From NCBI RefSeq assembly GCF_016097555.1, contig NC_054701.1, forward strand, positions 1,103,049-1,167,048: a DNA stretch of 64,000 nt. The letters are read 5' to 3'. Position 1 is the stretch's first letter. Every line of letters begins with the position of its first letter. This DNA is from Gigantopelta aegis (taxonomy: Eukaryota > Mollusca > Gastropoda > Neomphalida > Peltospiridae). This document shows positions 581-24,900 of this stretch, in pieces. A model generated the notes under the pieces. The model saw only the letters and a program-made list of their open reading frames with translations, did no database searches and was not told the origin of the DNA. Both the position numbers and the translations under genes were made by a program.

Positions 581-903
581 ATGAATACGAACCCACTGCG
601 TAGGCTACTGTCTGTCAGATGTGTTGCTAGTTTGGTCAGACAGTCGTCAGGATCAATTCCTAGCTATAATCATGGGTTGATGGGGAAGGGCAAAGTGAAG
701 AGGTATCTACAAACATTTGAGATCAAACTTAGACTTCTGTTTTTTATCATTGTCCGTCCCATCCTCCTCCAAAAATACTTTTTGTAAATAATGTCAGTTT
801 GTTTTGACGTAAGAAGAAATGTAAAAGTGTCGTCAAAGGCATTACTTAATATGTTTACTTCCAACATTCAAACCTAGTTTGTTTTGTATTTTCCAAAACA
901 CTT

Positions 904-934
<31 letters not shown>

Positions 935-3900
935 CATTGCTCAAATAAAATATAACTTTTCTTGTTTGTATTAAACATGTATACAAATGGATACAGGTAT
1001 GGGACAAAATAGAGGCTGTTAAAAATACTGTTAAATTACGTTGTACGGTAACTGTCGTAAATGTTTCGTCAATTGGTTTTTCGTACACAACGCGGCTTGT
1101 TTCCTTTGATGTCCAGTGTGCAGACTGATTGTTGGTGTGGTTTTTTTGGTTTTTTATTGTGTGGAAAAAAGTGTACATTTGGAAATAGCAGAGATAGGTG
1201 CTGGAAAATATAGTAGGGTGCAGAAAAATAAAGGAGGGGGGAGAATGTAAAAGGAGGGCGGCAAAATGCAATAGCGGGGCGGGCTGACCTGCTTAAATGG
1301 AGCAGCAAGAACACTGCTTTTTTAAATACTTTTTTCTCATTCTTAAAAGTCGTGGTTGTATCGTGGTACCAGCTACGGCCTCAAGTGAAGTGAATGGAGA
1401 GTTTGTCTGATGACATAGAGCACATACACTACGGCTGTTTGCAACTTATTGTATAAACTATGGCTGTTTGCAATCTATTGTATACACTGGCTGTTTGTAA
1501 CCTATTGTATAAACTATGGCTGCTTGCAATCTATTGTATAAACTATGGCTGTTTCTATTGAATAGCAACAGGGGATCATACATCTCACAGACAGGACAGT
1601 ACATACCACAATGATACATAAATCGTGAGGTTTTGATAGAAAAAATGCAATGGGTGTACCAATAGTGATCCATTTTACGACTCATTATTTCTCAGACAAG
1701 CACTGTCACAGAGTTATGTCATACATCCACCAACCTATAGTGAATACACATTGGGGAGATCTAAGTTCTTAGACCTACCCAATCTAAAGTGGGGAGATCT
1801 AATCTAAAGTGGGGAGATCTACATCCAGTAGACCTCCACCAACCTAAAGTGAATACACAGTGGGGAGATATAAGAACACTAGACCTACACCAACCTAAAG
1901 TGAATACACAGTGGGGAGATATAAGAACACTAGACCTACACCAACCTAAAGTGAATACACAGCTCAGTGAAATCTATGACTACTACTACTACAACTTAAA
2001 GTAAATACACAGTTCAGTGAGAAGATCTATAACCAATACACCACGACCAACCTACTTATTTCACATGCCCCTATACCAGTAAGGTTTCAGGCATGTCCAT
2101 CTCGGGTCCTGTCTCTGGATAGCCAGTGGCCTAACCCGAGACCCTGTAGTGAATACAGTTCGAGGAGATCTATAGCCACTACACCACTACCAACCTATAG
2201 AGAATACACAATTCATATGGAGATCTATGATAACTACTACTCCACCAACCTCTAGTGAATACACAGTTCATATGGAGATCTATAACTACTACTCCACCAA
2301 CCTATACATAGTGCCATGGGAAGGTGCATGCATTTGAGTGAGATTGTTTTACATGCACGTGTACTTAATGAGAAACTGTTTTTTTAATTTCAGACCAACC
2401 CTTACACTGCCATTTTCATACAAGCCACAAGGGGAGATTTTGTTTGGCATCCATCCAGTACTTTTAGCTCTACAAGCCAGGAAACGGAAACATTTTAACA
2501 GAGTTTTTATTAAAACAAACAAGGGAGATAATAAGAATTTGGAAAAGATTGTCCAGTTGTCGTGTGAACATGGAGTTGAGGTTGAAGAAGTGAAGGGTCA
2601 TGTCCTTGACTCTCTGTCAGGTGCACGACCTCACCAGGTAAACCGAAATCTCCGTCAGGTGCACGACCTCACCAGGTAAACCGAAATCTCTCTGTCAGGC
2701 ACGTGACCTCACCAGGTAAACCGAAATCTCTCTGTCGTGTGCACGACCTCACCAGGTAAACCGAAATCTCTGTCAGGTGTACGACCTCACCAGGTAAACC
2801 GAAATCTCTGTCAGGTGTATGACCTCACCAGGTAAAACGAAATCTCTCTGTCAGGTGTATGACCTCACCAGGTAAAGGCCTCCCAGCCATTCCTCCCTCT
2901 TTATTACATATCCATGGTACTTACAAATGTTCGTTTGAGAAAAATTGAAGAATGAAAGAAGAATTTTTATCATTTAATCCAGTTTTAGCTTTTTATGCAC
3001 AGCAGGCTGGTTTTGTTCAGAGATTCCGAAAAATTTCTTTTGAGTATGGTTTTCGAGTGTTAACCTTTGAGTATAGTTTTCAAGTGTTCCCCTTTGAGTA
3101 TGGTTTTCGAGTGTTCAGCTTTGAAAGGAACATTTCAGCTTTTATTTTTAAGTAACGCATCCCTGATAAGAGTCAATTTATTAAGCTGTGTACAGTATTT
3201 AAGTGGGTATGTTTGAATGTTTTATTCAATATTTCAGTGTGTTTTGATGTTTTATACAATATTTCAGTCTTTGAATGTTTTATACAATATTTCAGTGTTT
3301 TGGTGTTTTATACAGTATATCAGTGTGTTTTGATGTTTTATACAATATTTCACTCTTTTGATGTTTTATACAATATTTCAGTGTATGGTTGAAAGATTTA
3401 TACAATATTTCAGTGTATGGTTGAAAGATTTATACAATATTTTACAATGTGTATTTGAATGCTTTATACAGTATTTCACGATGTGTATTTGGTTGTATTT
3501 ATTCAGGGTGTGTGTTTGGATACGAGCAGATTCCCCGTTAAGAGGCTGAGTCTACAGTATCATGTTGAGAGTTTACCGCGGGACCAAGCGTCTCTGTGGC
3601 TCTACCTACACAACATCCAGGTAATGAGAGTTTATCGCGGGACCAAGCGTCTCTGTGGCTCTACCTACACAACATCCAGGTAATGAGAGTTTACCGCGGG
3701 ACCAAGCGTCTCTGTGGCTCTACCTACACAACATCCAGGTAATGAGAGTTTACCACGGGACCGAGCGTCTCTGTGGCTCTACCTACACAACATCCAGGTA
3801 ATGAGAGTTTACCACGGGACCGAGCATCTCTGTGGCTCTACCTACACCAGGTAATGAGAGTTTACTGCAGGCGCGAGCGTCCCTGTGGCTCTACCTACAC

Positions 3901-6900
3901 AACATTCAGGTAATGAGAGTTTACCACGGGACCGAGTGTCCCTGTGGCTCTACCTACACAACATCCTGGTAATGAGAGTTTACCTCGGGACCGAGCGTCT
4001 CTGTGGCTCTACCTACACCAGGTAATGAGAGTTTACAGCGGGACCGAGTGTCTCTGTGGCTCTACCTACACCCGGTAATGAGTTTACCGCGGGACCGAGC
4101 GTCTCTGTGGCTCTACCTAAACCAGATAATGAGAGTTTACCGCAGGACCGAGCGTCTCTGTGGCTCTACCTAAACCAGATAATGAGAGTTTACCGCAGGA
4201 CCGAGCGTCTCTGTGGCTCTACCTAAACCAGATAATGAGAGTTTACCGCAGGACCGAGCGTCTCTGTGGCTCTACCTACACCAGGTAATGAGAATTTACC
4301 GCGGGACCGAGTGTCTCTGTGGCTCTACCTAAACCAGATAATGAGAATTTACCGCAGGACCGAGCGTCTCTGTGGCTCTACCTACACCAGGTAATGAGAA
4401 TTTACCGCGGGACCGAGTGTCTCTGTGGCTCTACCTACACAACATCCAGGTAATGAGATATGGTTTGTCCCTGTTGGAAACGTAACAACCATTTAGAGGT
4501 AACACTAACATTGTCGTCTATAAAAACTGTCATAATTTCTTTACAAGTTATATGAGTTTGGTGTTTGGTTACATTCAATGCATCTGTTGTGTTGAGGGGC
4601 AGGATGTAGCCCAGTGGTACAGCACTCGCTCGATGTGCGGTCGGTGTGGGATCGATCCCCGTCGGTGGGCCCATTGGGCTATTTCTCGTTCCAGCCAGTG
4701 CACCACGACTGGTATATCAATGGCTGTGGTATGTACTACCCTGTTTGTGGGATGGTGCATATAAAAGATCCCTTGCTGCTAATTGAAAAGAGTAGCCCAT
4801 GAAGTGGCGGCAGCGGGTTTCATTTCTCAGTATCTGTGTGGTCCTTAACCATATGTCTGACGCCATATAACCGTAAATAAAATGTGTTGAGTGCATCGTT
4901 AAATAAAACCTTTCTTTCTTTCTGTTGTGTTGAGCAACAACATGCAATTATTTTTAATTGGGGGTAGGACATAGTGGTAAAGTGCTCGGTTGATGCATGG
5001 TCGGTCTGGGATCGATCGCAGTCGGTGGACTATTTCTCATTCCAGCCAAGTGATGTAACAAAGGCCGATGCCATATAACCATAATTAAATGTGTCGAGTT
5101 TGTCTTTACATAAAATAGTTCTTCTTCCTTTATCTTGTCTTTCAGACTAGACTTCAAAGTCTCAACAATACAAGCAGCATATGGTTAAAGTCTGTAGACG
5201 TTAATGGTTTTGAGGCAGACTTTACATTTTGATAAGCATGGGCCAGTGTTAAAGCTTGTTCCCACGATACTGAGTTTTATAGTGAACACAGATAAATGTT
5301 AATGTAACTTTATAAATACAAAACACAAAGTGCACAATATATTTACTTGTATTTAAAGGACCCGATGAATATGGGTGCGATACTGAGAACTTCACATTTC
5401 CTGGGAGTTGATCAAGTCGTTGTTCCATCATTTAACAGGTAAACCACTGAGGGTCTTCTAAACTGGTTAATGGCAGCTAATTGTTAAAACGCTCACCATC
5501 ATCATTATATTGTATACAGTGTATGAAGAAAAGTTTTGTCATTAACTAGTAGAGTTCAGATTATACATTGTACAATAATCAAAATGGCAAACACATTTTC
5601 ATATTCCAAATTGTACTTTATGTCTAGGCAATAGCTTTCAGATACTCCCAAGTTTAGCTGCTATGGAAAAGAATTTTTTTAATTATGTTTTGTTTTTTGT
5701 TAATTTTGTAAATGGTATCTCATTAAAAATATTAGCTAGACAAGATAAGAATAATACAACTGCGGAATAAAATGAAGACTATAATTTGTATTATCAAACT
5801 GGCCTCAGTATTGTAGTGGTTAAGACTTCAAACTTAAAGGAATGCTTAAGCAAGGCTTTTGGACTGATAGGCATATCCAACAATATATAATGTACATTAT
5901 TGCTTAATATCAACAAGCATATTCAATTTAATTAATAAAATGGTTAAATGTGATGACTATTATATATAACAGGTGCAGCCATTTTGTTCCATCCCAGTGA
6001 ATACACTCTGGTGAGCTGGTGGTTACGTAATACTTAACGCATTATGTCAGGAATTAGTCTTAGAACTGAAGAAACAAACGTACCAGATTTTTGTGGGATG
6101 ATGAAACAGGCATACATCACAATGTTCTGTAATAATATCCATCCCAGTAAGCCAGCAATAAGTATATAATATTTAACAATACAAAGTAAATCACCATTGT
6201 CAAAGTGGCTACGAAAAAAGTCCAAATAACTATCGAACAATGTATCATGTTATGTCCATACATTAACCTAAGTCCTGAAATGTGTTTGCTTAGTTAATTG
6301 GCCTATTCTTTTAGTTGCCTCCACTGATGATTCCTGATTGGCAGGTGTATATTTGGTAGATAACCAGACATGGAAATTGCTGCAGTCTAATCACCGGTAG
6401 TATTATTAACATCACAGGGTATTGTGATGTAGCCTATTTATTCCCAATCTGATGGATCATGACGTGTCCTAATACTAGTCTTTGTTTAATGGTGTGGAGA
6501 AAACGTGTGGATCAAAGTGAAGTGCTTTATTGTAAATTACTGCATTTGTTTACACTGTGCATACAGGAGTTGGTAGGAGCTGACATCACTTTCTTCTAAG
6601 CTAGAGTACCAGACACAATGAAAAATAAACAAAATGGCTGCCCCCAGTTAGCACGAATAATCATGTTTTTTTATTAATTATTAACTTACAGGTTTTTCAT
6701 TTCTTAAACAGTCAGTATGTGTTGGTAGTCCAGGACATACGGCTCATATTTGAGTTTGCTTCCCCTTTAAGGCTGGTAGATACTCAGTCCACATACCAGT
6801 ATACTGACTCCCACCCAAAGTATGTTTTAACAATTTGATGGTTAGGTGTAAGGGCAATACACCGACTTCTCACTTAATAACCACCAACATCCTGCTAGCT

Positions 6901-9900
6901 GAGGTGTATGGGCAATACACCGACCTCTCACTTAATAACCACCAACATCCTGCTAGCTGAGGTGTATGGGCAATACACCGACCTCTCACTTAATAACCAC
7001 CAACATCCTGCTAGCTGAGGTGTATGGGCAATACACCGACCTCTCACTTAATAACCACCAACATCCTGCTAGCTGAGGTGTATGGGCAATACACCGACCT
7101 CTCACTTAATAACCACCAACATCCTGCTAGCTGAGGTGTATGGTCAATACACCGACCTCTCACTTAATAACCACCAACATCCTGCTAGCTGAGGTGTATG
7201 GGCAATACACCGACCTCTCACTTAATAACCACCAACATCCTGCTAGCTGAGGTGTATGGGCAATACACCGACCTCTCACTTAATAACCACCAACATCCTG
7301 CTAGCTGAGGTGTATGGTCAATACACCGACCTCTCACTTAATAACCACCAACATCCTGCTAGCTGAGGTGTATGGGCAATACACCGACCTCTCACTTAAT
7401 AACCACCAACATCCTGCTAGCTGAGGTGTATGGGCAATACACCGACCTCTCACTTAATAACCACCAACATCCTGCTAGCTGAGGTGTATGGTCAATACAC
7501 CGACCTCTCACTTAATAACCACCAACATCCTGCTAGCTGAGGTGTATGGTCAATACACCGACCTCTCACTTAATAACCACCAACATCCTGCTAGCTGAAG
7601 TGTAAGGGCAATACATCGACCTCTCACTTAATAACCACTAACATCCTGCTATCTGAGGTGTATGCCCCGGACAGTGTGCTTGAACATGTGACTCCCGTTG
7701 TATTTCAGCTTAACATGACTCGTATTTCAGCTATAACAGGACTCACACTGTATTTCAGCTGTAACATGACCTGCATTGTATTTCAGCTGTAACGTGACTC
7801 CCGTTGTATTTCAGCTGTAACATGACTCCCGTTGTAAGTAAAGCCAGTGCTGGAGCCATGGAGGTGATGAATCCTCTCGGACTGGGACCAGATTCCAACA
7901 GTCTTGTCCAGCTTTTAGAGGTACCACAGAAATATTAAATATCTTTGTCTTATCCAGCTTTTAGAGGTACCACAGAAATATTCAATAGCTGTCTTATCCA
8001 GCTTTCAGAGGTACCACAGAAATATTAAATAGCTGTCTTATCCAGCTTTCAGAGGTACCACAGAAATATTAAATATCTTGGTCTTATCCAGCTTTTAGAG
8101 GTACCACAGAAATATTAAATATCTTTGTCTTATCCAGCTTTCAGAGGTACCACAGAAATATTAAATAGCTTTGTCTTATCCAGCTACTAGAGGTACCACA
8201 GAAATATTAAATAGCTTTGTCTTATTTAGCTTTCAGAGGTACCACAGAAATATTAAATAGCTTTGTCTTATCCAGTTTTTAGAGGTACCCCAGAAATATT
8301 AAATATCTTTGTTGTATCCAGCTTTCAGAGGTACCCCAGAAATATTAAATATCTTTGTCTTATCCAGCTTTCAGAGGTACCCCAGAAATATCTTTGTCTT
8401 ATCCAGCTTTTAGAGGTACCACAGAAATATTAAATAGCTTTGTCTTATCCAGCTACTAGAGGTACCACAGAAATATTAAATAGCTTTACGTCTTATCCAG
8501 CTTTTAGAGGTACCACAGAAATATTAAATAGCTTTGTCTTATCCAGCTACTAGAGGTACCACAGAAATATTAAATAGCTTTGTCTTATCCAGCTTTTAGA
8601 GGTACCACAGAAATATTAAATAGCTTTGTTGTATCCAGCTTTCAGAGGTACCCCAGAAATATTAAATATCTTTGTCTTATCCAGCTTTCAGAGGTACCCC
8701 AGAAATAAATCTTTGTCTTATCCAGCTTTTAGAGGTACCACAGAAATATTAAATAGCTTTGTCTTATCCAGCTACTAGAGGTACCACAGAAATATTAAAT
8801 AGCTTTACGTCTTATCCAGCTTTTAGAGGTACCACAGAAATATTAAATAGCTTTGTCTTATCCAGCTACTAGAGGTACCACAGAAATATTAAATAGCTTT
8901 GTCTTATCCAGCTTTTAGAGGTACCACAGAAATATTAAATAGCTTTGTTGTATCCAGCTTTCAGAGGTACCACAGAAATATTAAATATCTTTGTCTTATC
9001 CAGCTTTCAGAGGTACCCCAGAAATATTAAATAGCTTTGTCTTATCCAGTTTTCAGAGGTACCACAGAAATATTAAATATCTCTTTATGTTGTATCCAGG
9101 TTTCAGAGGTACCACAGAAATATTAAATATCTTCGTCTTATCCAGCTTTCAGAGGTACCACAGAAATATTAAATATCTTTGTCTTATCCAGCTTTTAGAG
9201 GTACCACAGAAATATTAAATATCTCTTTATGTTGTATCCAGGTTTCAGAGGTACCACAGAAATATTAAATATCTTTGTCTTATCCAGCTTTCAGAGGTAC
9301 CACAGAAATATTAAATAGCTTTGTCTTATCCAGCTTTTAGAGGTACCACAGAAATATTAAATATCTCTTTATGTTGTATCCAGGTTTCAGAGGTACCACA
9401 GAAATATTAAATATCTTCGTCTTATCCAGCTTTCAGAGGTACCCCAGAAATATTAAATATCTTTGTCTTATCCAGCTTTTAGAGGTACCACAGAAATATT
9501 AAATATCTGTCTTATCCAGCTTTTAGAGGTACCACAGAAATATTAAATAGCTTTGTCTTATCCAGCTACTAGAGGTACCACAGAAATATTAGATAGCTTT
9601 GTCTTATCCAGCTATTAGAGGTACCCCAGAAATATTAAATAGCTTTGTGTTATCTTTACATCAATATTTCCAGTCTTATCAAATTTTCAGTGGAATCACA
9701 TATATTAAATATAACACTAAAAGGTATATCATTACGTAAATGGTTCCAACGTTTCCCTGTTTTTAGATGTAATGCAGAAATATAAAATGTCTTCCCACTC
9801 CGACATCATCATCCATCTTTCTATTTCTGTCTAATAACCAGGGCTCTCTGGGTGAGCAAAACAGTTTGCCAAATTTTCTATTAAATTTAAAAAATTGCAG

Positions 9901-11340
9901 AAACTGTGAGTTATTTTCTTTAAAAATGTCAATTATTACACAAAAGTATTTCGCCAAACTAAAATAAAATTCGCCAACTGCTTTAAAAATTAGCAATTGG
10001 TGAATTTGGCAAGTGCCATCCCACCCGTCTCGATAACCCACCCCTGCTGTCTCGATAACCCATCCCACCTGCCTCAATAACCCACCCCTGCTGTCGTTCC
10101 TGTCTGTAACTTCATTAAGAGTGTGTATTTCAGTAGTTCTCCCCTAATTTCAGACGTGGAAGGAGGTGGGGGGAGTGGTGGTGGGGACGGCTGTAGAAGA
10201 TCATTATTCTCATCAGGTCCACAGGTACCAGATCAACCAGCCCACTCTCTTGATAGTCGGTTTGTACTACTTTTTATTTCATTGTTAGTAGGTTTGTATT
10301 ACTTTACTGTTGATAGTCGGTTTGTACGACTTTTTATTTCATTGTTAGTAGGTTTGCATTAGTTTACTGTCGATAGTATTATTTTATACTTTGCTGATGG
10401 TGGGTTTATATTACTTTTCACTGTGTTAATAGCGAGTTTGCAATACGTTTTATTCTGCCACATTTTAAACTGGCAGTGTTATTTAACATTTGGTTATTTT
10501 GACACTTGGTTCAGAAAGGAAACCTCCTGCCACCCTATAGGCCAATTCTAGCAAAAACACAGCAAGGGATCTTTTATATGTACTTTTCATAGACAGGACA
10601 CTACATACCAAGGTGTATGATGTGTCATAGGATACAGCTGTTAAAGCCCAATTTTGGTTCTAATTGAAAAACAAACTAGTCATGCCATGGATGGATTTTA
10701 AGATATTCTTCAATGTCAATCTAGTATGTGGTTGTTTTTCTTGCAGGTAATGAAGGTTTTGGTATAGACAGTAGCATTTTAAATCTCTGTGATATTCTGT
10801 TGTCGATCCAGCCTCAGGGTGTTGACAGAGAAAACTTGGTGGCTTCACTCAATGTGTCGGTAGCAACAGGTAAGAACCAGCTGGTTCGGTTATTTCCTTG
10901 ATGTTTATCTACTCCAGTACTTTGTCCCATGATACATGTGAAGAATAACACACAGATCTGTATGGCTGTCTGTGATAGGTCTTGAATCGGGCAGCCGTTA
11001 ATAGTGAAGTGCAGATAAACCCAACATTTTGTTGGGATACAATAATATGCATCCTGCCAAATTAATAAGCTACTGTAAGGATGTTTTTTTGTTTTGGCAG
11101 TGGCAAGTTAAAAGTAGTTAAATCAGTGTCTGTTATGTGTATATGAATATTTTATGTAGACTGCAAAATAAAAAATTACATTTTATAATAATCCATTTTT
11201 TAAAGCAAATGATAGATTAAAAGAACATACATATTTTTCAAATGGTGCCTCAACTCTTTTTTTTCACAGGCATAATTATTCACTCACTCCTCTCATCCAT
11301 GAAAAAAGCCGACTCCAGCCAGGTCCAACAAGCTGTGTGA
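581..11340 (+). CDS. MRM1: MRM1, mitochondrial rRNA 2'-O-ribose methyltransferase (8 exons, complete)
   Basis: SpoU/TrmH-family (SPOUT) enzyme expected to methylate a ribose in mitochondrial large-subunit rRNA using SAM. Coding exons: 581-702, 2394-2637, 3507-3620, 5359-5438, 7815-7920, 10154-10259, 10747-10869, 11270-11340. All junctions are GT-AG, phases agree, and the sum is 966 nt (321 aa plus TGA); human MRM1 is about 353 aa. The N terminus (MNTNPLRRLLSVRCVASLVR) is basic and amphipathic, as in a mitochondrial presequence. Residues about 41-122 form the substrate-binding region (GEILFGIHPVLLALQA, then a final HQ at the exon end). The three SPOUT motifs are present: NMGAILRT in exon 4, LLIVGNEGFGI across exons 6-7, and LNVSVATGI across exons 7-8. 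Introns 2, 3 and 5 begin with tandem copies of the preceding exon end. Only the first donor copy keeps the reading frame. Confidence 0.95.
1429..1555. repeat. short minisatellite, about 30-bp unit
   Basis: About five imperfect copies of a unit containing CTATGGCTGTTTGCAATCTA followed by TTGTATAA, in MRM1 intron 1. Confidence 0.75.
1555..1690 (-). mobile_element. degraded SINE fragment
   Basis: The stretch with GCAACAGGGGATC, ACAGACAGGACAGTACATACCA and a later imperfect match looks like the reverse complement of the middle of the SINEs at 4597 and 45397. Head and tail are not clear. Confidence 0.4.
1730..2312. repeat. minisatellite in MRM1 intron 1, about 57-bp unit
   Basis: Repeated GTGAATACACAGTGGGGAGAT followed by CTAGACCTACACCAACCTAA. 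About three good copies near 1840-1960 are followed by degenerate copies to about 2312, interrupted by an unrelated stretch near 2060-2150. Confidence 0.75.
2600..2877 (+). repeat. tandem copies of MRM1 exon 2 donor junction
   Basis: About seven copies of a 38-40-bp unit made of the last ~25 nt of exon 2 (CTGTCAGGTGCACGACCTC, then ACCAG) plus the first intron bases GTAAACCGAAAT. Every copy keeps CACCAG|GTAAA. The first copy is the true exon end at 2637. Confidence 0.9.
3003..3140. repeat. short tandem repeat, about 30-bp unit
   Basis: Three copies of a unit containing TTTGAGTATGGTTTTCGAGT within MRM1 intron 2. Confidence 0.6.
3190..3500. repeat. tandem repeat leading into MRM1 exon 3 acceptor
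   Basis: About nine imperfect copies of a unit containing TTTTATACAATATTTCAGTG. The true acceptor (TTTATTCAG|GGTGTGTGTTTGG) resembles the unit, so this could be a degenerate acceptor-derived array. That origin is inference. Confidence 0.65.
3567..4450 (+). repeat. tandem copies of MRM1 exon 3 donor junction
   Basis: About 16 copies of a 51-59-bp unit: the end of exon 3 (GAGAGTTTACCGCGGGACC through CTCTACCTACACAACATCCAG) plus GTAAT. Some copies lack the ACAACAT segment. Several carry CAGATAAT, so the donor GT is lost there. The first copy is the functional exon end at 3620. Confidence 0.92.
4597..4920 (+). mobile_element. tRNA-headed SINE, full length
   Basis: The head has a box-A-like TAGCCCAGTGGTACAGC and a box-B-like GGGATCGATCCCC. 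The body is followed by a tail with GTCTGACGCCATATAACCG and GCATCGTTAAATAAAAC, then a CTTT repeat. A 14-bp target duplication, TCTGTTGTGTTGAG, flanks it (4583-4596 and 4921-4934). It lies in MRM1 intron 3. Confidence 0.93.
4961..5132 (+). mobile_element. internally deleted SINE of the same family
   Basis: Head (GGACATAGTGGTAAAGTGCTC, GGGATCGATCGCAG) joined directly to a tail (GATGCCATATAACCATAAT ... TTACATAAAA) with the body missing. No clear target duplication. Confidence 0.75.
5834..6770. mobile_element. possible TTAA-flanked MITE
   Basis: Left edge TTAAAGGAATGC and right edge GCTTCCCCTTTAA are imperfect inverted copies, each including TTAA, the target of piggyBac-type elements. No transposase is visible and similarity between the ends is short. 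Confidence 0.4.
6839..7663. repeat. 58-bp minisatellite, about 14 copies
   Basis: Very homogeneous unit containing GAGGTGTATGGGCAATACAC and CCACCAACATCCTGCTAGCT. Copies differ mainly at GGGCAAT versus GGTCAAT; the edge copies are more divergent. Confidence 0.95.
7681..7815 (+). repeat. tandem copies of MRM1 exon 5 acceptor junction
   Basis: About five copies of a 25-40-bp unit with GTATTTCAG followed by CTGTAACATGACTCCCGT, the first bases of exon 5. The last copy is the true acceptor, with the exon starting at 7815. Confidence 0.88.
7902..9652 (+). repeat. large array of MRM1 exon 5 donor junction
   Basis: About 38 copies of a ~46-bp unit. It combines the last bases of exon 5 (CTTGTCCAGCTTTTAGAG) with the donor and intron bases GTACCACAGAAATATTAAAT. 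Variants (GTACCCCAG, CTACTAGAG, CTCTTTATGTTGTATCC) recur in blocks, which suggests multi-unit duplications. The first copy is the real exon end at 7920. Confidence 0.92.
9653..10153. other. end of MRM1 intron 5 with a hAT-like terminal fragment
   Basis: From about 9839 the sequence CAGGGCTCTCTGGGTGAGC resembles the terminal repeat of the hAT element at 25188-29650. The rest (about 9860-10017) is AT-rich and repeats AATTTGCCAA-like words. A small duplication of CCACCCCTGCTGTC follows. No exon before 10154. Confidence 0.45.
10246..10371 (+). repeat. two copies of MRM1 exon 6 donor junction
   Basis: A ~61-bp unit starting at the exon 6 end, TTGATAGTCG|GTTTGTAC, is repeated once more (second GATAGTCGGTTTGTACGAC at about 10312). 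A third, partial GATAGT follows. Confidence 0.75.
10511..10630 (-). mobile_element. SINE fragment
   Basis: Reverse-strand match to the SINE body: CAGAAAGGAAACC, GCAAGGGATCTTTTATATG, CATAGACAGGACACTACATA. Head and tail missing. In MRM1 intron 6. Confidence 0.65.
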
Positions 11341-12975
11341 TATTCACTGGTGCAGAGATCGGTAGATGTAACCAATTTAATACACACACAACTGATCAGT
11401 TCTCTTATTGTAACCAGTGTGGAGAAATTAATACACACACATCAGCTGATCAGTTGTCTTATCCCTGAAAGATTAATCCATCACTGTGTTGCTAGTTCCT
11501 CATACAGAACACTGACCTTCAAGTCATTTGACCGTAGTACACTGGCACAAGTTGTTCTCTACAGTTATCAAAAACAAACATTCACTTCTCAATAGATGCC
11601 AACTTTAAGATTCTTTGTGTAATGTGCCAACTGTGAATGTCAGCACACTAATGTTTTCAGGTATATCAGTTGGTGAATCTCCATAAAAAAAGTAACTTAT
11701 CTGTTCCATGAACATTGTTTAAGGACAGCAAATATGTATATATATGTGTTCAGGATTCGTGTAATTAAAGTGCACAAACATGAACCAAAATTTGCTTCAG
11801 TTCTATTTATCTTGTTTACATCATGACTAGATTGCCGTCACATTTTGAGGGAACACTGCTGTAATTAACTAGGGGTTGGGGTAGGGGGATATGTAATTAA
11901 CTAGGGGTGGGGGTAGGGGGATATAAACCAACATAGAAGAGCAGTTTTGGGTGTCGTACACCATCAACAAATATCTATTGGTCTGGAATGAGAAAACTGT
12001 TAAACAGTTTGGAGCCAAATTCATTGTTTTATTATAATTTATTTTAAACAGATTTACAGTCTAGGTGGTAAGTAACAATTTACATAATTTTGCCATTGAC
12101 TATCACCAGATTAGAAGACCACAGGCTGGTAATGTCATCAGATGTATGTGAAAGTCAATGAATAACCTAACAACAATGTCGGTTACAGAGGTGGTCATCA
12201 CCTCATCAGACATATGTGAAAGTCAATGAATAACCTAACAACAAAGTCAGTTACAGAGGTGGTCATCACCTCATCAGACGTATGTGAAAGTCAATGAATA
12301 ACCTAACAACGTCAGTTAGAGGTGGCCATCACCTCATCAGACATGTGAAAGTCAATGAATAACCTAACAACATCAGTTACAGAGGTGGTCATCACCTCAT
12401 GACATATGAAAGTCTAACAGTTCAGAGTTACAGAAAGTTAAGAATAACCTAACAACGTCAGTTAGAGGTGGCCATCACCTCATCAGACATGTGAAAGTCA
12501 ATGAATAACCTAACAACATCAGTTACAGAGGTGACCATCACCTCATCAGAAATATGTGAAAGTCCATGACTAACTTAATAACAATGTCAGTTACAGAGGT
12601 GGGCATCACCTCATCAGACATATAAGAAAGTCAATGAATAACCTAACAATGTCGGTTACCTCGGACCAAATGATCAACTGCAGGCCATGAAAGTAGGCAG
12701 TATTATTTTGAGCTTTCATTAAAAAAAAACGACAGAAGCATTTTTACAGTGTGACTAAAACCTGGGGGGGAGGCGTCTTTCTAAATTAAGAAAATATCTG
12801 GAATTTTAAGACATTTCACCAACACAAAACAAACCCAGTTTGTTCAATAGACCTTGAGAATGGGTAGTAAAAAGCAAAATCTGCTGGCCCAAAATGAGTA
12901 TGATACGAAAACATCCATCCCGAATTTCAAAACATTTGTCTTGCTTCAAAACTTCCATCTTGTATTAGTCAACCG
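11341..12975. other. MRM1-DDX55 intergenic region (convergent 3' ends)
   Basis: Holds both 3' UTRs. Reverse-strand AATAAA signals lie near 12030-12050, which could serve DDX55; no decisive MRM1 polyadenylation site was picked. It also contains a small duplication of TTAACTAGGGGTTGGGGTAG (about 11862-11925) and the 12108-12660 minisatellite. Confidence 0.45.
12108..12660. repeat. minisatellite, about 60-68-bp unit
   Basis: About eight copies of a unit with GAAAGTCAATGAATAACCTA, GTCAGTTACAGAGGTGGTCA and TCACCTCATCAGACAT. Some copies are deleted or shuffled. Confidence 0.88.
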
Positions 12976-15900
12976 TCAATCAAAATCATCACCAGCAAAC
13001 TCTTTACTAAATTCATCTTTAGAAATCTGAAAAAAACAAAACAGTTATCTAAATATACAGCATCACGTGAAGATACTTATGGAAAACGTGTATTTCCACT
13101 GTCGAGCCCTGAACATGTACATGACCAGGTGTATTTCCACTGTCGAGCCCTGAACATGTACATGACCGGTTACAATAACCTGACTTCATTGTATCCCATT
13201 TTATATTCAAGATGCTGTTTTGGTGTGTTAAAGCTTTAATATTTAAAACATTTCTTCAAAGTCCTGCCATTCTCACTTCTTTCTACTATATTTTGTTGGT
13301 TAAAATTTGCCCGTTCTGCAAAATTAAAAAGTTGTGACATAATTTTATGACATATATTTTCTTTTATTTAAATTAAATCTTTTGAGAAAATCACAAATGG
13401 AATATATCTTTAAGGATTGTCCGTTATTTCTTTTATGTTCATCTGGGTATGAAAAAGAAAATCATCTGCAAACTGAATAGGCAAAGCCATTCTCACAGAA
13501 ATTTGCAGATTAATGTTTTGTTCAAAACACTGATGAACGTAAAAGTAATAACAGACAATACTTATAATTAAATTTCAAAAATATTTACTATTAATAACAC
13601 TAAAAGTTTTTATTTTGAATTATTTTTTTAGTTCTTCAATAATAACCGTCAGTGAGACAAACTACCAATATAAAATGACATCATCAGATATGACATTCCC
13701 GATGTTATTTTTCCGTTGCCAAGACTGGACCAATGGGACGACATTAAATTGTAATAAATGTAACAGAAATGTAATTATTGGTGCATCACCTTTCCCTTTT
13801 TGAGTTTCTTCAGTAGTCTGGTGTCCTTGTCAAGATCATTTAGATCTTCTTCGTTCAGTTCTGAGTCCAACTTCCTCTTCTTAAGCTCAAGTTTTTCTTT
13901 CTTCTTCTTCTTTTTATCTTGTTTCTCTTTTTGTTTAGACCAAGGAAGTGTCTGTACCCATCACAAATAGAAAAATAATAAACATTTACTGATGGACTGA
14001 ATTACCATCATTGAAATGATTTGTTTTTAATCAATGTTTTAAGATCAGAGAAACCCCAGGTGATCTTTCATCAGTCATTATGTTCGTTTAGCTATACTAA
14101 CAGTGCTGTCAACAGTGTTTTTGACTGGTTGAACGAAAGGTCAAGTTAACAAACAACAATACTGGCTGTGGTAAGATCTTTGATGGAGATTAACTCCTGG
14201 CAATTAGTAAGAGATGTCACCTATTGAAAAGTCGTCTTCAGACTTTTTAACAGCACCATATAAATATTTGACACGACACAACACCAATATTTATCACTGT
14301 GAAATATCCACTTGTGGTGTTACAGTGTCCAGTGTTCAAGATTAACAATATTCCGATATCCCGGGGATACCAGGATTTAATTTTGGATACCAGACTTCAA
14401 TAACCCAGTATCCCATAGGGATATAATGATGATGTTGGTGGGTTTTTTTTTAATCCTGCGTTTTTATTTTTCACTGAAACAATGAAAGTAGTAATTTACT
14501 GATGAAGTTAAGTAACAGCTTGTCCAAGTTTGTTATGGTGTTATTTATGAATTTCATTTAAGTAGGATACTAAATTCTCAGGTGGGATACCAGATTTTGA
14601 AATGTTAGTATCCAACTGGGATACTGCCCAAATGTTTTAATCTTGAACACTGATGTCCCTTATATAGCCTGATAGACCAGTTTTATGTTCCTTGTGATAC
14701 AACATCCATATGACAGATTACATCTTTTTATGCACCAGTTTTATGTTCCTTGTGATACAACATCCATATGACAGATTACATCTTTTTATGCACCAGTTTT
14801 ATGTTCCTTGTGATACAACATCCATATGACAGATTACATCTTTTTATGCACCAGTTTTATGTTCCTTGTAATACAACATCCATATGACAGATTACATCTT
14901 TTTATGCACAGTGTAAAATTCTGATTGAAGACAGTGACTTATTGTTACCTTTGGAGGTCTTTTCACTTTGACTTTTTTACTTTCACGTTCCATCTTCTCC
15001 AATCTGTGCTTCTCCTGATACTTGTCTCTGAAAAACAAGCAGCTAATCTTTGAGGAAAATCAACATTTAATCAATAGATATTGGACAATATAATAATCGC
15101 ATTCACAAGAAACCTAAAACAATTTCAGTTTTTGACAAACTTCAAAAAGCTGTTCACAAGAATGAATAGTTCTGCGTGGTGTACCTGTAACTAATGTTTT
15201 TTACATCAATTTCAACCGGCTGGAAATCTGTTATCACTCTCCCTTTCAGCTCTGGCATCTTGGGTATTTTCAAAAGACCAAATCCTGTTGCCAGCTTTCC
15301 AAAATCAAGGTCTGAAATGATAAGACAATATTTTCTGATTTCTATACAGCAGGGCTTGCGCTGTCGGTAGCCAAATTAGCCATTGGTTGAATTTTTTTTT
15401 AAATGGCTAATAAAATTTGCAAGTGGCTAAAATTTTGGCTAAGCCATTTTCTATCTTCTGATGTGCACAAACTGTTACATAATCTATCCGACACCTCAAA
15501 CATAATAATCGCTCGACCAGTAACGAGAAACGGTGTCATCTAGAATACAGCGTAGGCCCAATGAAGTTTGCTTATTTTAATAATCATGGTTATTAATTTT
15601 AACGGCATGCATTCAACATGTATGAAATCTGTAACTTGTTATTTTAACTTTATAAAGTCTTTGAACCAAAGTAATAAAAACAGACCGACAACATGTGTCA
15701 ATTTGAATACACATGCCAGTTCAGGGCCGAAAGACATTCCATTTGGCTAATATTTTGGCTACAGGTATTTTTGATCCAGGGTGAGCCGTGATACAGTTGG
15801 CAAACAATTATTGTCTCCAACTAAAATTCTAGGTATAATGGACAACACCTTCCATGTCCAAAGAGTCCATAACACTAATATGAAACTGAACGAAACCTTT

Positions 15901-18900
15901 TGGATTCTCTGACTTCTGTTTTTAATGACAAAACAAATTGGCATTGAGACTTTACAAAATTAGGGTAGTCAGAAAAAGGGACAAATTAATTCTACTGACT
16001 TGATTTATACACTACATACAGCTACAGGATACAGCATTTGATTTCATTAGTGGAAACTTACCTTTTACTCGGAAAATCATACTACACTCATGTTTTGCAT
16101 AGGACTGCACAAATGAAACAAAAGCTCTCATTCCTTTTTCATACATAGCTCTGAAATCAGAAAGAAAATTGATTCTAGATTTGTGAAATGCTTGAAACAA
16201 GGGACCTAACAATACTGTCCAGTTGTAGATCATTAAATACACAATGACACAGCCTTTTTAACAAAGATATGTAAAATTAACAATTACTTTTGTAAATCTT
16301 ACAAGAACAAAATGAAGAGTTAAAAGTTAAAGTTTTCTTTTTATAACGACAACACTGGAGCACATTGGCTACTGGACTGACAATTAGTCTCAGAGAGAAA
16401 AACTACTACATTTTTCCATTAGTAGCAAGGGAACTTTTATATGCACCATCCCACAGACAGGATAGCACATACCATGACCTATGATATAGCAGTAGTTGTG
16501 CACCAGCTGGAATGAGAAACAGCCTAATAGGACCACCAATGGAGATCAATTGTAGACCGATTGTGCACCAGGTGAGTGCTTTACCACTGGGCTACGTCCT
16601 ACCCCACAGACAGAATTAATAAATCAGGTGAGTGCTTTACCACTGGGCTACGTCCCACCCCACAGACAGAATTAATAAATCAGGCGGTGCTTTACCATTG
16701 GGCTGTCCCACCCCACAGACAGAATTAATAAATCAGGTGAGTGCTTTACCATTGGGCTACGTCCCACCCCACAGACAGAATTAATAAATCAGGCGAGTGC
16801 TTTACCATTGGGCTACGTCCCACCCCACAGACAGAATTAATAAATCAGGCGAGTGCTTTACCATTGGGCTACGTCCCACCCCACAGACAGAATTAATAAA
16901 TCAGGCGAGTGCTTTACCATTGGGCTACGTCCCACCCCACAGACCCACAGACAGAATTAATAAATAAATCAGGCGAGCTTTACCATTGGGCTACGCCCCA
17001 CCCCACAGACAGAATTAATAAATTAGCTTGAAAACTCTTCATTTTAAAACAAAAATATCAGGAAATGCCCAGCCAATCTTATTGAATGTATATCATGACC
17101 ATTGAATGTATATCATGACCAGTTGTTGTAGAACACAGGAATGAATCTACTTTGATCTGCAACTGATATCTAACAGTATTTTCAACAAACTGAAGACGGC
17201 TGTCCGCCAGTGCTGAGATTTAACAAGTTTTATTCTCAATACAAACCTGTCACTGATGGCGAATGACTGCAATTTGGGCAAACAGTTGATGACTGGAGAA
17301 CGTTTCTCAACCTCTCTCAGTGGAACCTACAATCAAACACAGTTTAACAAATTCAATGTTTATTCTCGTACAAATGAAAATAATATCAGGTTTTAGTTTT
17401 TGGTTCATGCAAGTATGAACCGAGAAAATGATGTGCACACTATATAACTCTTTGTAGATTTTTTCTTTCTTTTCGGTTTGACAAAGATTTGAATGCAAAA
17501 AAAACAGTAAGCATCTCTGGACCAATCCGATTGCTGTAAAGTGTATAGATGCAAAGAAAATTTAATTACAGTATAACCTTGATTTACCGCCAACTAAGGT
17601 ACCAATGCAATTTTGGCCTTATATCGAGTTGGAGGTATAGTGAGGGTGAGGGGGGGGGGGGGGGGGACAAGCTGTGTATGAATCCAACAATTTTTGATGG
17701 TCGTGGCACTTACAATGTCCCAGGCTTGTTTTAATTGGGCATGAAGATAGTGGCTCCCCAAAGCAATTGTTGCCGTCACTCAATAACACAAAGCAGTTAC
17801 TGTATACTACCAGTGGTCATCGGTGTTAGATTTTCACCAATCACCTGGTTAATTAAAGCATTATGATTGATAGGATTTGGGCAGATGGCGAGGGTGGCAG
17901 TAAATCGAGGGAATTAAACCGAGATACAAATGGTACTTGAACAGAGGTTGGTGGTAGGCGGGGTTGGCATTAAATCCTGGGGGGAGGGGGGGCAATAAAT
18001 CGAGGGTACACTGTATTTCAATTTAACTTGGGTATTACAATGGCTGGGTGTTGTAAAACCATTAGCCTGGGGAGCAGTGGGTCACAGGCGTGTATTTTTA
18101 CCATCCCAACCTGTGCCCCACTTAGTATATCAATGGCTGTGATATCAATGGCTGTGGTATGTACTGTTCTGTCTCCAGTAAAATGCTTATATCAAAGATC
18201 CATTGCTGCATTTTAATAGTAATAAGCTACATGTCTGCAGTGGGCTTCCTCTGTGTCGGTCAACCATGTGACAAATATTAATATGTTTACACTCCAAACA
18301 GCTGTAGTTTAAAAGATGCTGAGGTGTTGTTTAACATGTAAACTAAAGAATAAAGTAAGCCCTACCTTTTGATTTATCTGAATAAACTCGATGTATGTAT
18401 CTTCTGTGGGTAGAAGCATTACCAGAGCATTTCCAGCATTACCAATCCTAGCAGTTCTGCCACACCGATGTACAAAACAGCTGAAACATAGACAATCTGT
18501 AGAGAACATCTGACTTTCACACTGATGTACAAAACAGCTGAAACATAGACAATCTGTAGAGAACATCTGACTTTCACACCAATGTACAAAACAGCTGAAA
18601 CATAGACAATCTGTAGAGAACATCTGACTTTCACACCGATGTACAAACAGCTGAAACATAAACAATCTGTATAGAACATTGTGACTTTCACACCGATGTA
18701 CAAAACAGCTGAAACATAGACAATCTGTAGAGAACATCTGACTTTCACACCGATGTACAAATAGCTGAAACATAAACAATCTGTATAGAACATTGTGACT
18801 TTCACACCGATGTACAAAACAGCTGAAACATAAACAATATGTATAGAACATCGTGTCTTTCACACCGATGTACAAACAGCTGAAACATAAACAATCTGTA

Positions 18901-21900
18901 TAGAACATTGTGACTTTCACACCGATGTACAAAACAGCTGAAACATAGACAATCTGTAGAGAACATCTGACTTTCACACCGATGTACAAACAGCTGAAAC
19001 ATAAACAATCTGTATAGAACATTGTGACTTTCACACCGATGTACAAAACAGCTGAAACATAAACAATATGTATAGAACATCGTGTCTTTCACACCGATGT
19101 ACAGAACAGCTGAATCGTAGACAATCTGTAGAGAACATCTGACTTTCACACCGATGTACAAAACAGCTGAAACATAGACAATCTATATAGAACATCTGAC
19201 TTTCACACCTATGTACAAAACAGCTGAAACATAAAGACAATCTGTATAGAACATCTGACTTTCACACTGATACCGGCCTCGGTGGCGTCGTGGCAGGCCA
19301 TCGGTCTACAGGCTGGTAGGTACTGGGTTCGGATCCCAGTCGAGGCATGGAATTTTTAATCCAGATACCGACTCCAAACCCTGATTGAGTGCTCCGCAAG
19401 GCTCCATGGGTAGGTGTAAACCACTTGCACCGACCAGTGATCCATAACTGGTTCAACAAAGGCCATGGTTTGTGCTATCCTGCCTGTGGGAAGCGCAAAT
19501 AAAAGATCCCTTGCTGCCTGTCGTAAAAGAGTAGCCTATGTGGCAACAGCGGGTTTCCTCTAAAAAAATCTGTGTGGTCCTTAACCATATGTCTGACGCC
19601 ATATAACCGTAAATAAAATGTGTTGAGTGCGTCGTTAAATAAAACACTTCTTTCTTTCTTTCACACTGATGTACAAAACTGCTGAAACAGACAATCTGTA
19701 TAGAATATCTGACTTTCACACCGATGTACAAAACAGCTGAAACATAGACAATCTATATAGAACATCTGACTTTCACACCGATGTACAAAACAGCCGAAAC
19801 ACAGACAATCTATATAGAACATCTGACTTTCAAACCGATGTACAAAACAGCTGAAACATAGACAATCTATATACATCTGACTTTCACACCAATGTACAAA
19901 ACAGCCGAAACATAAAGACAATCTGTATAGAACATCTAACTTTCACACCGATGTACAAAACAGTACAAAACAGCTGAAACCTAGACAATCTGTATAGAAT
20001 ATCTGACTTTCACACCAATGTACAAAACAGCTGAAACATAGACAATCTATATAGAACATCGTGACTTTCACACCGATGTACAAAACAGCTGAAAATCATA
20101 GAGAGTGAAACCCTCAGAACTGATCCTCAGTAAACCTGAATTTCCGTAACCTTTAGACTACTGGATTAATTCTTGAGTTTATAATTTTTACTGATATATA
20201 TTCTCTTAAATATTTTAGAAATACATAAAATAAAGTTCATATATGAATCGGTAAGTATTATTTTTGTGGGTTTTTTGTCATTTTTATGATATTTTAGATC
20301 AGTTAATGGCGATTAAAATTAAGCAAATTTTTTAAAAAGTCACGTTTACTTACGGGCATTTGTGGCCAGCTGTCCAGTATTTATGTCCATTATTCCCGAT
20401 AACAGTGGTTTTGTGACCAGAATTTAAAAAAAGAAAAGAACTATGATTCATATTGCAATATTTGGTGATTTTCGTTGCTGATAAAACAATCAAATTTATT
20501 ATCAAATTAGCTGTCACAATCAGCTATCGATCCCTGAAAATGACCGCGACGTGCCGCCATTATTGTTAAGCAAAAATACTTGCCGAAAACCACTTTTTGA
20601 ACTCAAAATTCCAAGCTATTTTCCACAGAAAAACAACAAACCAAAGCTAGCATGCTGTAGAATAAACTGTTTCCTGTTAAGAAAACACGTTTCCGGTGAG
20701 TGTCATGTGCAAAACGGCGGGAAATATGAATTGGGGAATGCACTGTATGCAGTGTACAGTACATGTATGTTGACTGGCATGACGCCGGGTGAGATATCTC
20801 ACCTGCAGTAGTCAGACGGTTAAAACCAGACGTTTTTTCCCAGTGTCTTTTTTAATATCAGTTCAGGACAGAACTTCTTCAACCCAGATATCCTTAAAAC
20901 CAGACTTTTTATTTGGTCCTGTAGGTGTCCAGTTTAGAAAGGTTTCACTATATCTATGTTCAGCTGGGGTAGGAACAAAAGAAGATTCTCTGCTATGAAC
21001 ATGTGATGAGTGATCTGATGACAACAAACCTGGCAGAGCTGGGTGGATCGTACTGTATGACCCAGTGAACGTCGGGAATATCCACGCCACGAGCCATGAC
21101 GTCCGTACACACGAGAATACCACTGTTTAAACCGCGGAACTTGGCAAAAATCTTATTTCTCTTCTTTTTCATCTTCCCGTGAATACACAGAACCTGCTGT
21201 TTCTTCATCAGTCTAGAATGAGGAACAAGCAATGTAGCATATTCCAACTTCTCACATCTTAAGCATAACCTAGATCATACAAATGTCATATTTACTGTTA
21301 AAATTCAATTCCTGGTGAACAATTGTTAAATAGGCAGCTGCCGCCTTCCACATATTTATTACTAAATGACCTGGAAGTAGGACACTTTGACTGAATTATT
21401 GATTTATTCATATACACTAACACTAAGGACAAAGTTGTTTGAATAATGTTCGTCAATTTTGTAAAGTTACCCAAAGACTAATGTATGAATGCTTCTTTTT
21501 TATTAGTATAATGAACTGAAACCATCAATTCTTTATTATTTACAGTGTTATATTTCTTCACTGTGTTACTACCAGGGTTGTTTTATCGCCTTTCACTCAC
21601 TGTTGAATAGCTTTAGTGAAGTAGTCGACACAGGCACATGTACTGAAGAATATCATCACCTTTTCCTTCTTGTGCTGGCGAAGAAAATGTATCAGTTGAT
21701 TGAGTTTGTCGTTTGCATTCACAATCTGTAACACAAGAAATCACCAATATAGTCAAACACTAGAAAACATTCGCAATCCGTAACAGAAGAGATCACCAAT
21801 ATAGTCAAACACTAGAAAACATTCGCAATCCGTAACAGAAGAGCTCGCCAATATAGTCAAACACTAGAAAACATTCGCAATCCGTAACAGAAGAGCTCGC

Positions 21901-24900
21901 CAATATAGTCAAACACTAGAAAACATTCGCAATCCGTAACAGAAGAGCTCGCCAATATAGTCAAACACTAGAAAACATTCGCAATCCGTAACAGAAGAGC
22001 TCGCCAATGCCAATATAGTCAAACACTAGAAAACATTCGCAATCCGTAACAGAAGAGCTCGCCAATATAGTCAAACACTAGAAAACATTCGCAATCCGTA
22101 ACAGAAGAGCTCGCCAATATAGTCAAACACTAGAAAACATTCGCAATCCGTAACAGAAGAGATCACCAATATAGTCAAACACTAGAAAACATTCGCAATC
22201 TGTAACAGAAGAGCTCGCCAATATAGTCAAACACTAGAAAACATTCGCAATCCGTAACAGAAGAGCTCGCCAATATAGTCAAACACTAGAAAACATTCGC
22301 AATCCGTAACAGAAGAGCTCGCCAATATAGTTAAACACTAGAAAACATTCGCAATCCGTAACAGAAAAAATCGCCAATATAGTCAAACACTAGAAAACAT
22401 TCGCAATCAATATAGTCAAACACTAGAAAACATTCGCAATCCGTAATACAAAAAATCACCAATAGTCAAGAAATCATTCACAATCTGTAACAGAAGAAAT
22501 GTTCAGCAGTAACACAACAGAATAGATGTTTAACGACACCCCAGCATGAAAAATACATCGGCTATCTGGTGTCAAACTATGGCAGAGGCAAACAAACAAA
22601 GTGATGATCAACATCAATATAAAAATTGAAGAGGCAAATAAAAACTCAGTGTAAAGAATTGTGCAAAAAATACAAATATCACAGATAGGTAATATTAAAA
22701 TTTAGAATAAAAGTCAGTATCACGTAGAAATTGTAATAAAAGTTTGTTATCCAAATATATCTTTTCTAGCTTCAGATGATTACACTCCATCAAAATGTAT
22801 CATATCATCAGAGTACACTGACAGTGCACACACTGATGTGGAGGATCCTTCTTGAAAATAAATGAATGGGTCAAATATGTATGACTGATGTGAGCACGAC
22901 ACAAGACTATTTCATCCTTCCTGTGCTGCCTATAGGAGGATTGCCACTCTCCCAGAACTGGCTTGACTGCATGAAGCTTATTCGCGACTGCAGCATTTCA
23001 ATCATTTTGCCAAGTCGAAAAGATAAATTGGTTGATACTATGTTTAAAATCTGTATACAGCAAATCAACATTGGCATGAGACAAATCCAAAGCACACTTG
23101 GCAGCTGAATCTACCTTTTTATTACCCCTGATGCACAACAGATGACAGGCAGTTATCAAATTGCCTCTTTTTTTCAATAAAAATGTTCAACAATATTAAT
23201 GTCAAATCAAAGCTTATACCATCAGCTCAAAGACTATAGTGAGATGAATAGCATGTAAAAGTTTTCTAAAATCTACAGTAAAATGAATACCACGTCAAAG
23301 TTTTCTAAAATCTACAGTGAGATGAATACTATGTAAAGTTTTCCAAAATCTACAGTGAGATGAATACCATGTAAAGGTTTTCTAAAATCTACAGTGAGAT
23401 GAATACTATGTAAAGTTTTCTAAAATCTATAGTGAGATGAATACCACGTCAAAGTTTTCTAAAATCTATAGTGAGATGAATACCACGTCAAAGTTTTCTA
23501 AAATCTACAGCGAGACAAATACCATGTAAAGGTTTTCTAAAATCTACAGTGAGATGAATACCATGTAAAGGTTTTCTAAAATCTACAGTGAGATGAATAC
23601 CATGTAAAGGTTTTCTAAAATCTACAGTGAGATGAATACCATGTAAAGTTTTATAAAATCTATAGTGCGATGAATACCATGTAAAGGTTTACTAAAATCT
23701 ACAGTGAGATGAATACCATGTAAAGGTTTTCTAAAATCTACAGTGAGATGAATACCATGTAAAAGTTTTCAAGAGATGCTGGTGTCCTCTGGACAGGTGT
23801 TTTCGAGGACATCTTTTCCTTGACCGTGATTCGAAGAGGATTTCTTAAACCAGCTCTTATCAAACACTCCACCTCCTCAGTCTGTGTGGCTGAAAACAGC
23901 CCCGTCCGTCGCTGTTTGGGCAAGTAACTTAAAATACTGTTGATGCTGAAAACAATAAGAGTGTGTTTTAAGACTTTAACATAAACAGCTGACACACAAC
24001 AGTAGAGGCAGTTTGGGGCTATCTGACGCCAGAGGTGACACACAACAGCAGAGGCAGTTTGGGGTTATCTGAAGCCAGAGGTGACACACAACAGTAGAGG
24101 CAGTTTGGGGCTATCTGAAGCCAGAGGTGACACACAACAGTAGAGGCAGTTTGGGGCTATCTGAAGCCAGAGGTGACACACAACAGTAGAGGCAGTTTGG
24201 GGCTATCTGAAGCCAGAGGTGACTACACAAGTATTAAGTAAATGCCCTTTCATTACAAAGAAATAGAATACTTGTGCCCAGACATAGTGAGAGAAGAGAC
24301 CCAGTGTTACATCAACTCGTAGCACTTCTCCAGACAGTACAGCACATACCACAGCCTTTGATGCATCAGCCATTGTGTGCTGTGCATGCTGGGATGGAAA
24401 AACCCAATGCTGCCCCCAAAGAGGATTGATCCTACAACCCTACACATCCCATGGTGAGCACTCTACCTATTTTACCTGCCCAGCCTGTCAGTGTAAATAC
24501 TACATTTCCTAGTCAGGTCCTGGTTGTCATAGTTACTAGAGCAGAGCTTCTCTACTTGTGTACCAAGTGGTACTACGACACTGATATTCACAAATACAAA
24601 GTTTATTATCCCAGGATACCTCGAGTCAACATTTTGTTCAATAAAGGATTAACACTTACGTATTGCATAATATTCATGATTTCGGATTCATAAACAGTGT
24701 GTCAGTGCTTAACTAGGTTCAACAAAACTGCATGTGACATTTTCACCACGGTTACTGAACGCCTTGTTATGTTATGTTAAAGCCAAACCAACCTGGATTC
24801 AAAACCCATCTCGAGAAGTCGATCAGCTTCGTCTAGCACAAGAACTTCCTGAAATGAGTTGAAATTATGATGACCCATATTGATCATTACACAGACAAAA

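Follow-up and report, generated by a model that had tools for sequence, protein, structure and literature searches.

Minisatellites built from splice junctions in the gastropod Gigantopelta aegis

Why should minisatellites in two unrelated genes be built from those genes' own splice junctions? The question is raised by a 64,000-nucleotide stretch of the genome of the deep-sea vent gastropod Gigantopelta aegis (assembly GCF_016097555.1, contig NC_054701.1, positions 1,103,049 to 1,167,048; hereafter, the window), which contains the genes MRM1 and DDX55. A preliminary description, made from the sequence alone, had listed at least eight tandem arrays here whose unit consists of an exon end plus donor or of an acceptor plus exon start. 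We find that the arrays are real, that arrays of the same kind occur in other genes of this snail, and that they are probably tolerated by-products of local tandem duplication.

Junction arrays in MRM1 and DDX55

Gene models read from the window sequence give MRM1 (mitochondrial rRNA methyltransferase 1) eight coding exons on the plus strand (581–11339; the last exon, 11270–11339, was assigned by eye) and DDX55 fifteen coding exons on the minus strand (12976–51633). The translations match the annotated G. aegis mitochondrial rRNA methyltransferase 1 and DDX55-like isoform X2, each with 100% identity over the full length, and Pfam domains agree with both, so the names and opposite strands first assigned to the two genes are confirmed.

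Tandem Repeats Finder returned 85 rows for the window. Eight of the 42 splice junctions of MRM1 and DDX55 (19%) lie inside an array that extends at least 5 bp to either side, and a copy-by-copy listing shows the true junction repeated with the unit in all eight cases, which are exactly the eight of the preliminary list. The units measure 28–60 bp, and copy number runs from 2.1 (MRM1 exon 6, 60-bp unit) to 38.2 (MRM1 exon 5 donor).

Four of the arrays repeat an exon end plus donor of MRM1 on the plus strand. They lie at exon 2 (2394–2637; array 2609–2876, unit 38–40 bp, about seven copies of the exon end plus GTAAA), exon 3 (3507–3620; array 3566–4437, unit 53–59 bp, 15–16 copies), exon 5 (7815–7920; array 7901–9654, unit 46 bp, 38 copies), and exon 6 (10154–10259; array 10250–10377, units of about 32 and about 60 bp, five copies, several of them diverged). 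In the exon 3 unit, 55 bp are exonic, and the exon and intron edges of the array share the 5 bp TGAGA. The same gene has an array of acceptor plus exon start at exon 5 (7688–7836, unit 28 bp, four to five copies). On the minus strand, DDX55 carries a donor array at exon 6 (23756–23945; array 23234–23770, unit 39 bp, 14 copies) and acceptor arrays at exon 7 (21601–21725; array 21716–22441, unit 52 bp, 13–15 copies) and exon 9 (18366–18480; array 18461–20094, unit 57 bp, 21 copies found). The exon 9 array is broken at about 19272–19657 by a stretch of other DNA resembling an interspersed (SINE-like) element. A candidate ninth array on the plus strand (3212–3478), weak, diverged and acceptor-like, ends 28 bp before MRM1 exon 3; its best 28-mer differs from the real exon 3 acceptor by 10 mismatches.

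The annotated MRM1 and DDX55 proteins require the splice copy that adjoins the exon, and the remaining copies are intronic. The agreement of these proteins with use of the exon-proximal copy fits the earlier suggestion that arrays are retained where they still splice. Exon definition predicts that, among many identical sites, the one nearest the exon wins.

DDX55 has further repeats in and beside it. Most of intron 3 is taken up by one array of 14.6 kb (30769–45360), whose 69-bp and 37-bp units are arranged in a higher-order structure; it touches no junction. About 125 bp upstream of the start codon, 29 near-identical 63-bp units (51758–53589) are open in one frame per strand for 622 codons. 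Intron 4 holds, on the plus strand (26032–28769), open frames that resemble the remains of a transposase gene: the piece at 28332–28769 matches the hAT dimerisation domain in Pfam, and the piece at 27695–28159 gave no Pfam match.

Junction arrays elsewhere in the genome

Whole-genome searches were run on the G. aegis assembly (1.149 Gb), which the genome paper, of which an excerpt was consulted, describes as 1.15 Gb in 15 pseudo-chromosomes sequenced with PacBio reads (PMC7895826). Exons of chaperonin (CCT), kinesin, and myosin genes were located by Pfam searches, and 68 of 90, 111 of 131, and 65 of 86 exon rows, respectively, were kept. Excluded were rows on contigs numbered above 15, isolated or single-exon rows (CCT), and in addition one kinesin and two myosin rows; the Aldedh (14 rows) and Sec1 (29 rows) families were left out because they gave too few exon rows. 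Sequence was obtained around 180 of the 244 kept exon matches, in 50 gene groups, and a script working from reading frame and splice signals, with no annotation, called 206 junctions, 108 of them as profile-consistent donor–acceptor pairs. The sample was enlarged once following a first look, when 18 junctions were added to the original 188.

Arrays reaching at least 8 bp to either side straddle 10 of these 206 junctions: five among the 108 paired calls and five among the 98 single ones, or, by family, 4 of 94 in chaperonin, 1 of 61 in kinesin, and 5 of 51 in myosin genes. The junction itself is repeated in all ten, two of which have a single surplus copy, and the units are 44–158 bp long. Junction arrays are thus spread over several chromosomes and in unrelated genes, and 10 of the 18 known from the window and outside it are at donors and 8 at acceptors. 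The proposal that the arrays are made of true junctions, differ from one another, and recur in other genes holds for the eight in the window and the ten outside.

Could mis-assembly of the long reads have created these repeats or inflated them? The assembly was produced from PacBio subreads corrected with Canu and assembled with wtdbg2, according to the excerpted genome paper (PMC7895826), a procedure that can misjudge copy number. We consider such an artefact very improbable. Copies carry substitutions that recur in higher-order patterns, one array holds other DNA inside it, and exon sequence is present in the units at 18 junctions on several chromosomes; moreover, every window array is shorter than 2 kb, below the 8–50 kb fragments selected for sequencing in the same account (PMC7895826).

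The Pfam searches also returned matches with internal stops on small contigs: chaperonin matches on C758, C861, C950, C1023, and C1076, and kinesin and myosin matches on others. Short introns, pseudogenes, or foreign DNA are possible explanations.

Are junctions more often covered by arrays than chance would have it? Measured by base coverage they are not. In the window, 19% of junctions lie in arrays versus 51% of intron bases, or 29% when the 14.6-kb array is set aside. Tandem arrays make up 12% of the sampled regions outside the window, and in the first outside sample they cover 9 of 188 junctions (4.8%) versus roughly 15% of intron points at depths of 200–350 bp (among them 28 of 188 control points at 200 bp, 29 of 186 at 250 bp, and 30 of 183 at 300 bp). 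The preliminary description had named an excess of array overlap at junctions over random intronic positions as its own test, and by coverage no such excess appears in the window or in the outside sample. The result is partly to be expected, as arrays cannot grow into exons.

Origin of the arrays

The arrays are probably minisatellites of the type called 'mirages' in amphioxus, passengers of frequent local tandem duplication that have been tolerated since splicing uses the site next to the exon. Short local tandem duplications would be frequent, and some founders would happen to span an exon and the adjoining intron; slippage or unequal exchange could then extend the unit into the intron. Selection would purge duplications that break coding sequence and tolerate those at junctions, where the copy next to the intact exon would be spliced and the other copies would leave with the intron. 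Arrays that touch an exon may also be harder to lose by deletion, one conceivable cause of the surplus of births described below. We infer the duplication mechanism, the tolerance by exon definition, and the lack of function.

The abundance of ordinary arrays in the genome fits an origin as passengers. The dinucleotide GT or AG is intact in 135 of 165 surplus copies, and the two core positions show 11 distinct changes versus 8.2 implied by neighbouring positions; because the core changes near the rate of its neighbours, the surplus copies look neutral. Identity among copies has medians of 89 and 90.5 in junction arrays versus 89 and 89 in other arrays (P 0.89). The neutral appearance of the surplus copies, their equal identity, and the use of both sides of introns together fit neutral passengers. 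Three arrays, those at the MRM1 exon 3 donor and at both ends of MRM1 exon 5, have founding ends with 3–8 bases in common, the kind of overlap from which slippage or microhomology-mediated duplication would begin; three cases are few, and microhomology is not shown to be a general rule for the founding duplications.

The retention of GT or AG in most surplus copies could alternatively mean that the arrays are selected for, with the tandem sites acting as backups, having a regulatory role, or providing material from which alternative isoforms arise; the label 'isoform X2' of DDX55 implies, by name alone, that another isoform exists. We regard this as improbable, given that the core positions vary about as their neighbours do, that the offsets of surplus sites, pooled, fall in all three frames, so that splicing at them would in many cases cause a frameshift, and that two arrays have lost nearly all of their surplus core sites. 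The opposite possibility, selection that inactivates decoys, was also considered and rejected, the 11 core changes versus about 8.2 being unconvincing.

An origin from dispersed minisatellites or transposon-derived repeats that landed beside exons by chance is hardly credible. Junction units carry exon sequence of their own gene, and the two units tested among the 18 arrays (MRM1 exon 5 donor and DDX55 exon 9) matched only their own locus in a DNA search of the genome; these two therefore belong to no dispersed element. One array does bring an element into play: at 16569–17025, in DDX55 intron 10, the unit contains, judged by eye, the apparent head of an interspersed element, resembling sequence near 4597, plus flank. 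The head may be that of a tRNA-type SINE. Arrays may form at element edges too.

Weighing against neutral passengers born uniformly along introns are a surplus of array births at junctions, an excess of tandem donor motifs, and certain features of the copies. For the births, each array in the outside sample was collapsed to one unit, and the units were placed randomly outside exons in 2000 simulations. Ten births fall at outside junctions versus 3.49 expected (2.9-fold, P = 0.002); restriction to arrays with a period of at least 25 leaves 3.5 expected (P 0.0033), and the first look had given 9 at 188 junctions versus 3.4 (P 0.008). The window, which was chosen for the pattern, has 8 births versus 1.26 expected, a number reached in 0 of 5000 simulations. 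Part of the excess exists because array density rises generally near exons, from 0.42 array starts per kb at 200–440 bp to 0.87 at 0–200 bp. With a local density of 0.8–0.9 per kb, 5.3–5.9 births are expected (P 0.04–0.08), and an excess remains. Array edges reach 1.68 per kb at 0–25 bp from exons, and straddling arrays 1.52 per kb, versus 0.42 per kb at 200–440 bp; values scatter from one distance bin to the next, with 0.43 per kb at 25–50 bp and 1.12 at 150–200 bp. Across the genome, the perfect donor motif CAGGTAAGT forms 701 tandem pairs (9769 sites) versus 386 (9124 sites) for the reversed motif. Among the CAGGTAAGT pairs listed, 85 of 100 belong to one array, and a few long single arrays dominate the motif counts. 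Enrichment at or near exon edges is likely, and the data are suggestive of a surplus of births there of roughly two- to threefold; a process that targets junctions is unproven.

The surplus of straddling arrays, the peak of edges next to exons, and the excess of donor-motif pairs are the results that speak for births directed exactly to junctions, where paused polymerase, R-loops, nucleosome edges, or transcription nicks would favour duplications. Such targeting nevertheless seems unlikely to us. By coverage the junctions are depleted, the bins fluctuate, and against local density the P value is just 0.04–0.08; the motif counts are ruled by a few long arrays, and GGTAAGT repeats at 14-bp spacing show no excess but the opposite, 34 versus 87 in the control. 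Donors and acceptors are used nearly equally, with no preference for either, and the R-loop or pausing-linked repair suggested at the outset finds no specific support. A wider form of the idea, in which splice junctions or exon edges are true hot spots for founding duplications through transcription- or splicing-linked breakage or slippage, has a small but appreciable chance of being correct. If it were, about 1 in 20 junctions would carry an array, and together these would keep new splice sites and introns in constant supply.

As for the copies, surplus sites have been lost almost wholesale in two arrays. The acceptor AG has become GG in 12 of 14 surplus copies at DDX55 exon 7, and the myosin C1 array has lost the core dinucleotide in all five of its surplus copies; such near-total loss could hint at selection against decoys in these two arrays. 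Greater age or longevity of junction arrays is unsupported, their identity being the same as that of other arrays. Finally, the overlap of founding ends is negative in 14 of the 18 arrays, mostly ones with diverged copies or variable-length units; of the four positive estimates, that for MRM1 exon 2 was set aside because it left out the last copy. The reading as tolerated passengers of tandem duplication remains the one we favour.

Two loci on C1 came to light in the motif search. A consensus donor pair at C1:22592170–22592228 surrounds an exon end that looks collagen-like by eye, and a long array at C1:29524681–29528149 accounts for the 85 CAGGTAAGT pairs among the 100 listed, with 31 bp as the usual spacing.

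Relation to known junction repeats

The preliminary description knew of no described process of this kind. That statement was incomplete, as the pattern has been published both for the amphioxus mirages and for a repeat in human CBS; the comparisons that follow draw on excerpts of the papers cited. Mirages have been reported in amphioxus Adh3, the globins BflGb6 and BflGb9, troponin C, and PGBD5, where regular splicing is reported to be undisturbed and the way they are generated is called unclear; the units measure 10–72 bp in Adh3 and 150–160 bp in the globins (PMC3087553, PMC3902484). The snail arrays resemble them in that the unit spans an authentic exon–intron boundary (8 arrays in the window and 10 outside), that either the 5' or the 3' boundary of an intron is amplified (10 donor and 8 acceptor arrays), and that the units are in the published size range (28–60 bp in the window, 44–158 bp outside). 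Both snail units tested are private to their locus, a feature that we read as characteristic of mirages. The two systems differ in host, a mollusc rather than a cephalochordate, in copy number, which is up to 38 in the snail and 3–6 in BflGb6, and in the presence of several arrays in one snail gene, five of them in MRM1. Moreover, length polymorphism and splicing have been examined in amphioxus, whereas the snail arrays are known from one assembly.

In humans, the 31-bp variable number tandem repeat (VNTR) of CBS, c.1444_1467+7(16_21), comprises 24 exonic and 7 intronic bases in 16–21 copies (PMC2630376). By its variant name it has the same donor-side arrangement as the snail arrays, but it is a single, polymorphic locus and, according to a title cited in that paper, is tied to lower enzyme activity. 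In human duplicated genes, variable minisatellites of about 30 bp at exon–intron boundaries alter splicing patterns and have been tied to segmental duplications and new introns (PMC2812944).

In the excerpts consulted, mirages figure as an oddity of a handful of genes in amphioxus. Arrays at 10 of 206 junctions in a mollusc offer many natural tests of how the spliceosome chooses among up to 38 near-identical sites, and they make it testable how often tandem duplication feeds new introns. They also carry a practical consequence, since repeat masking ahead of gene prediction could conceal real exon ends.

Intron gain by tandem genomic duplication (PMC4974935, PMC2891723) likewise copies splice signals; in contrast to that process, the snail arrays lengthen introns. 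Among molluscs, an intronic 27-bp minisatellite has been described in abalone, in a report whose excerpt does not mention its position relative to exon boundaries (PMC6905558). No report of junction arrays in a mollusc was found among the papers listed in the literature searches, which mostly did not extend to subscription papers. Arrays of this kind had already been described, although rarely reported; what is new is their occurrence in a mollusc, together with a rough frequency, which places the junction arrays of G. aegis alongside the mirages of amphioxus.

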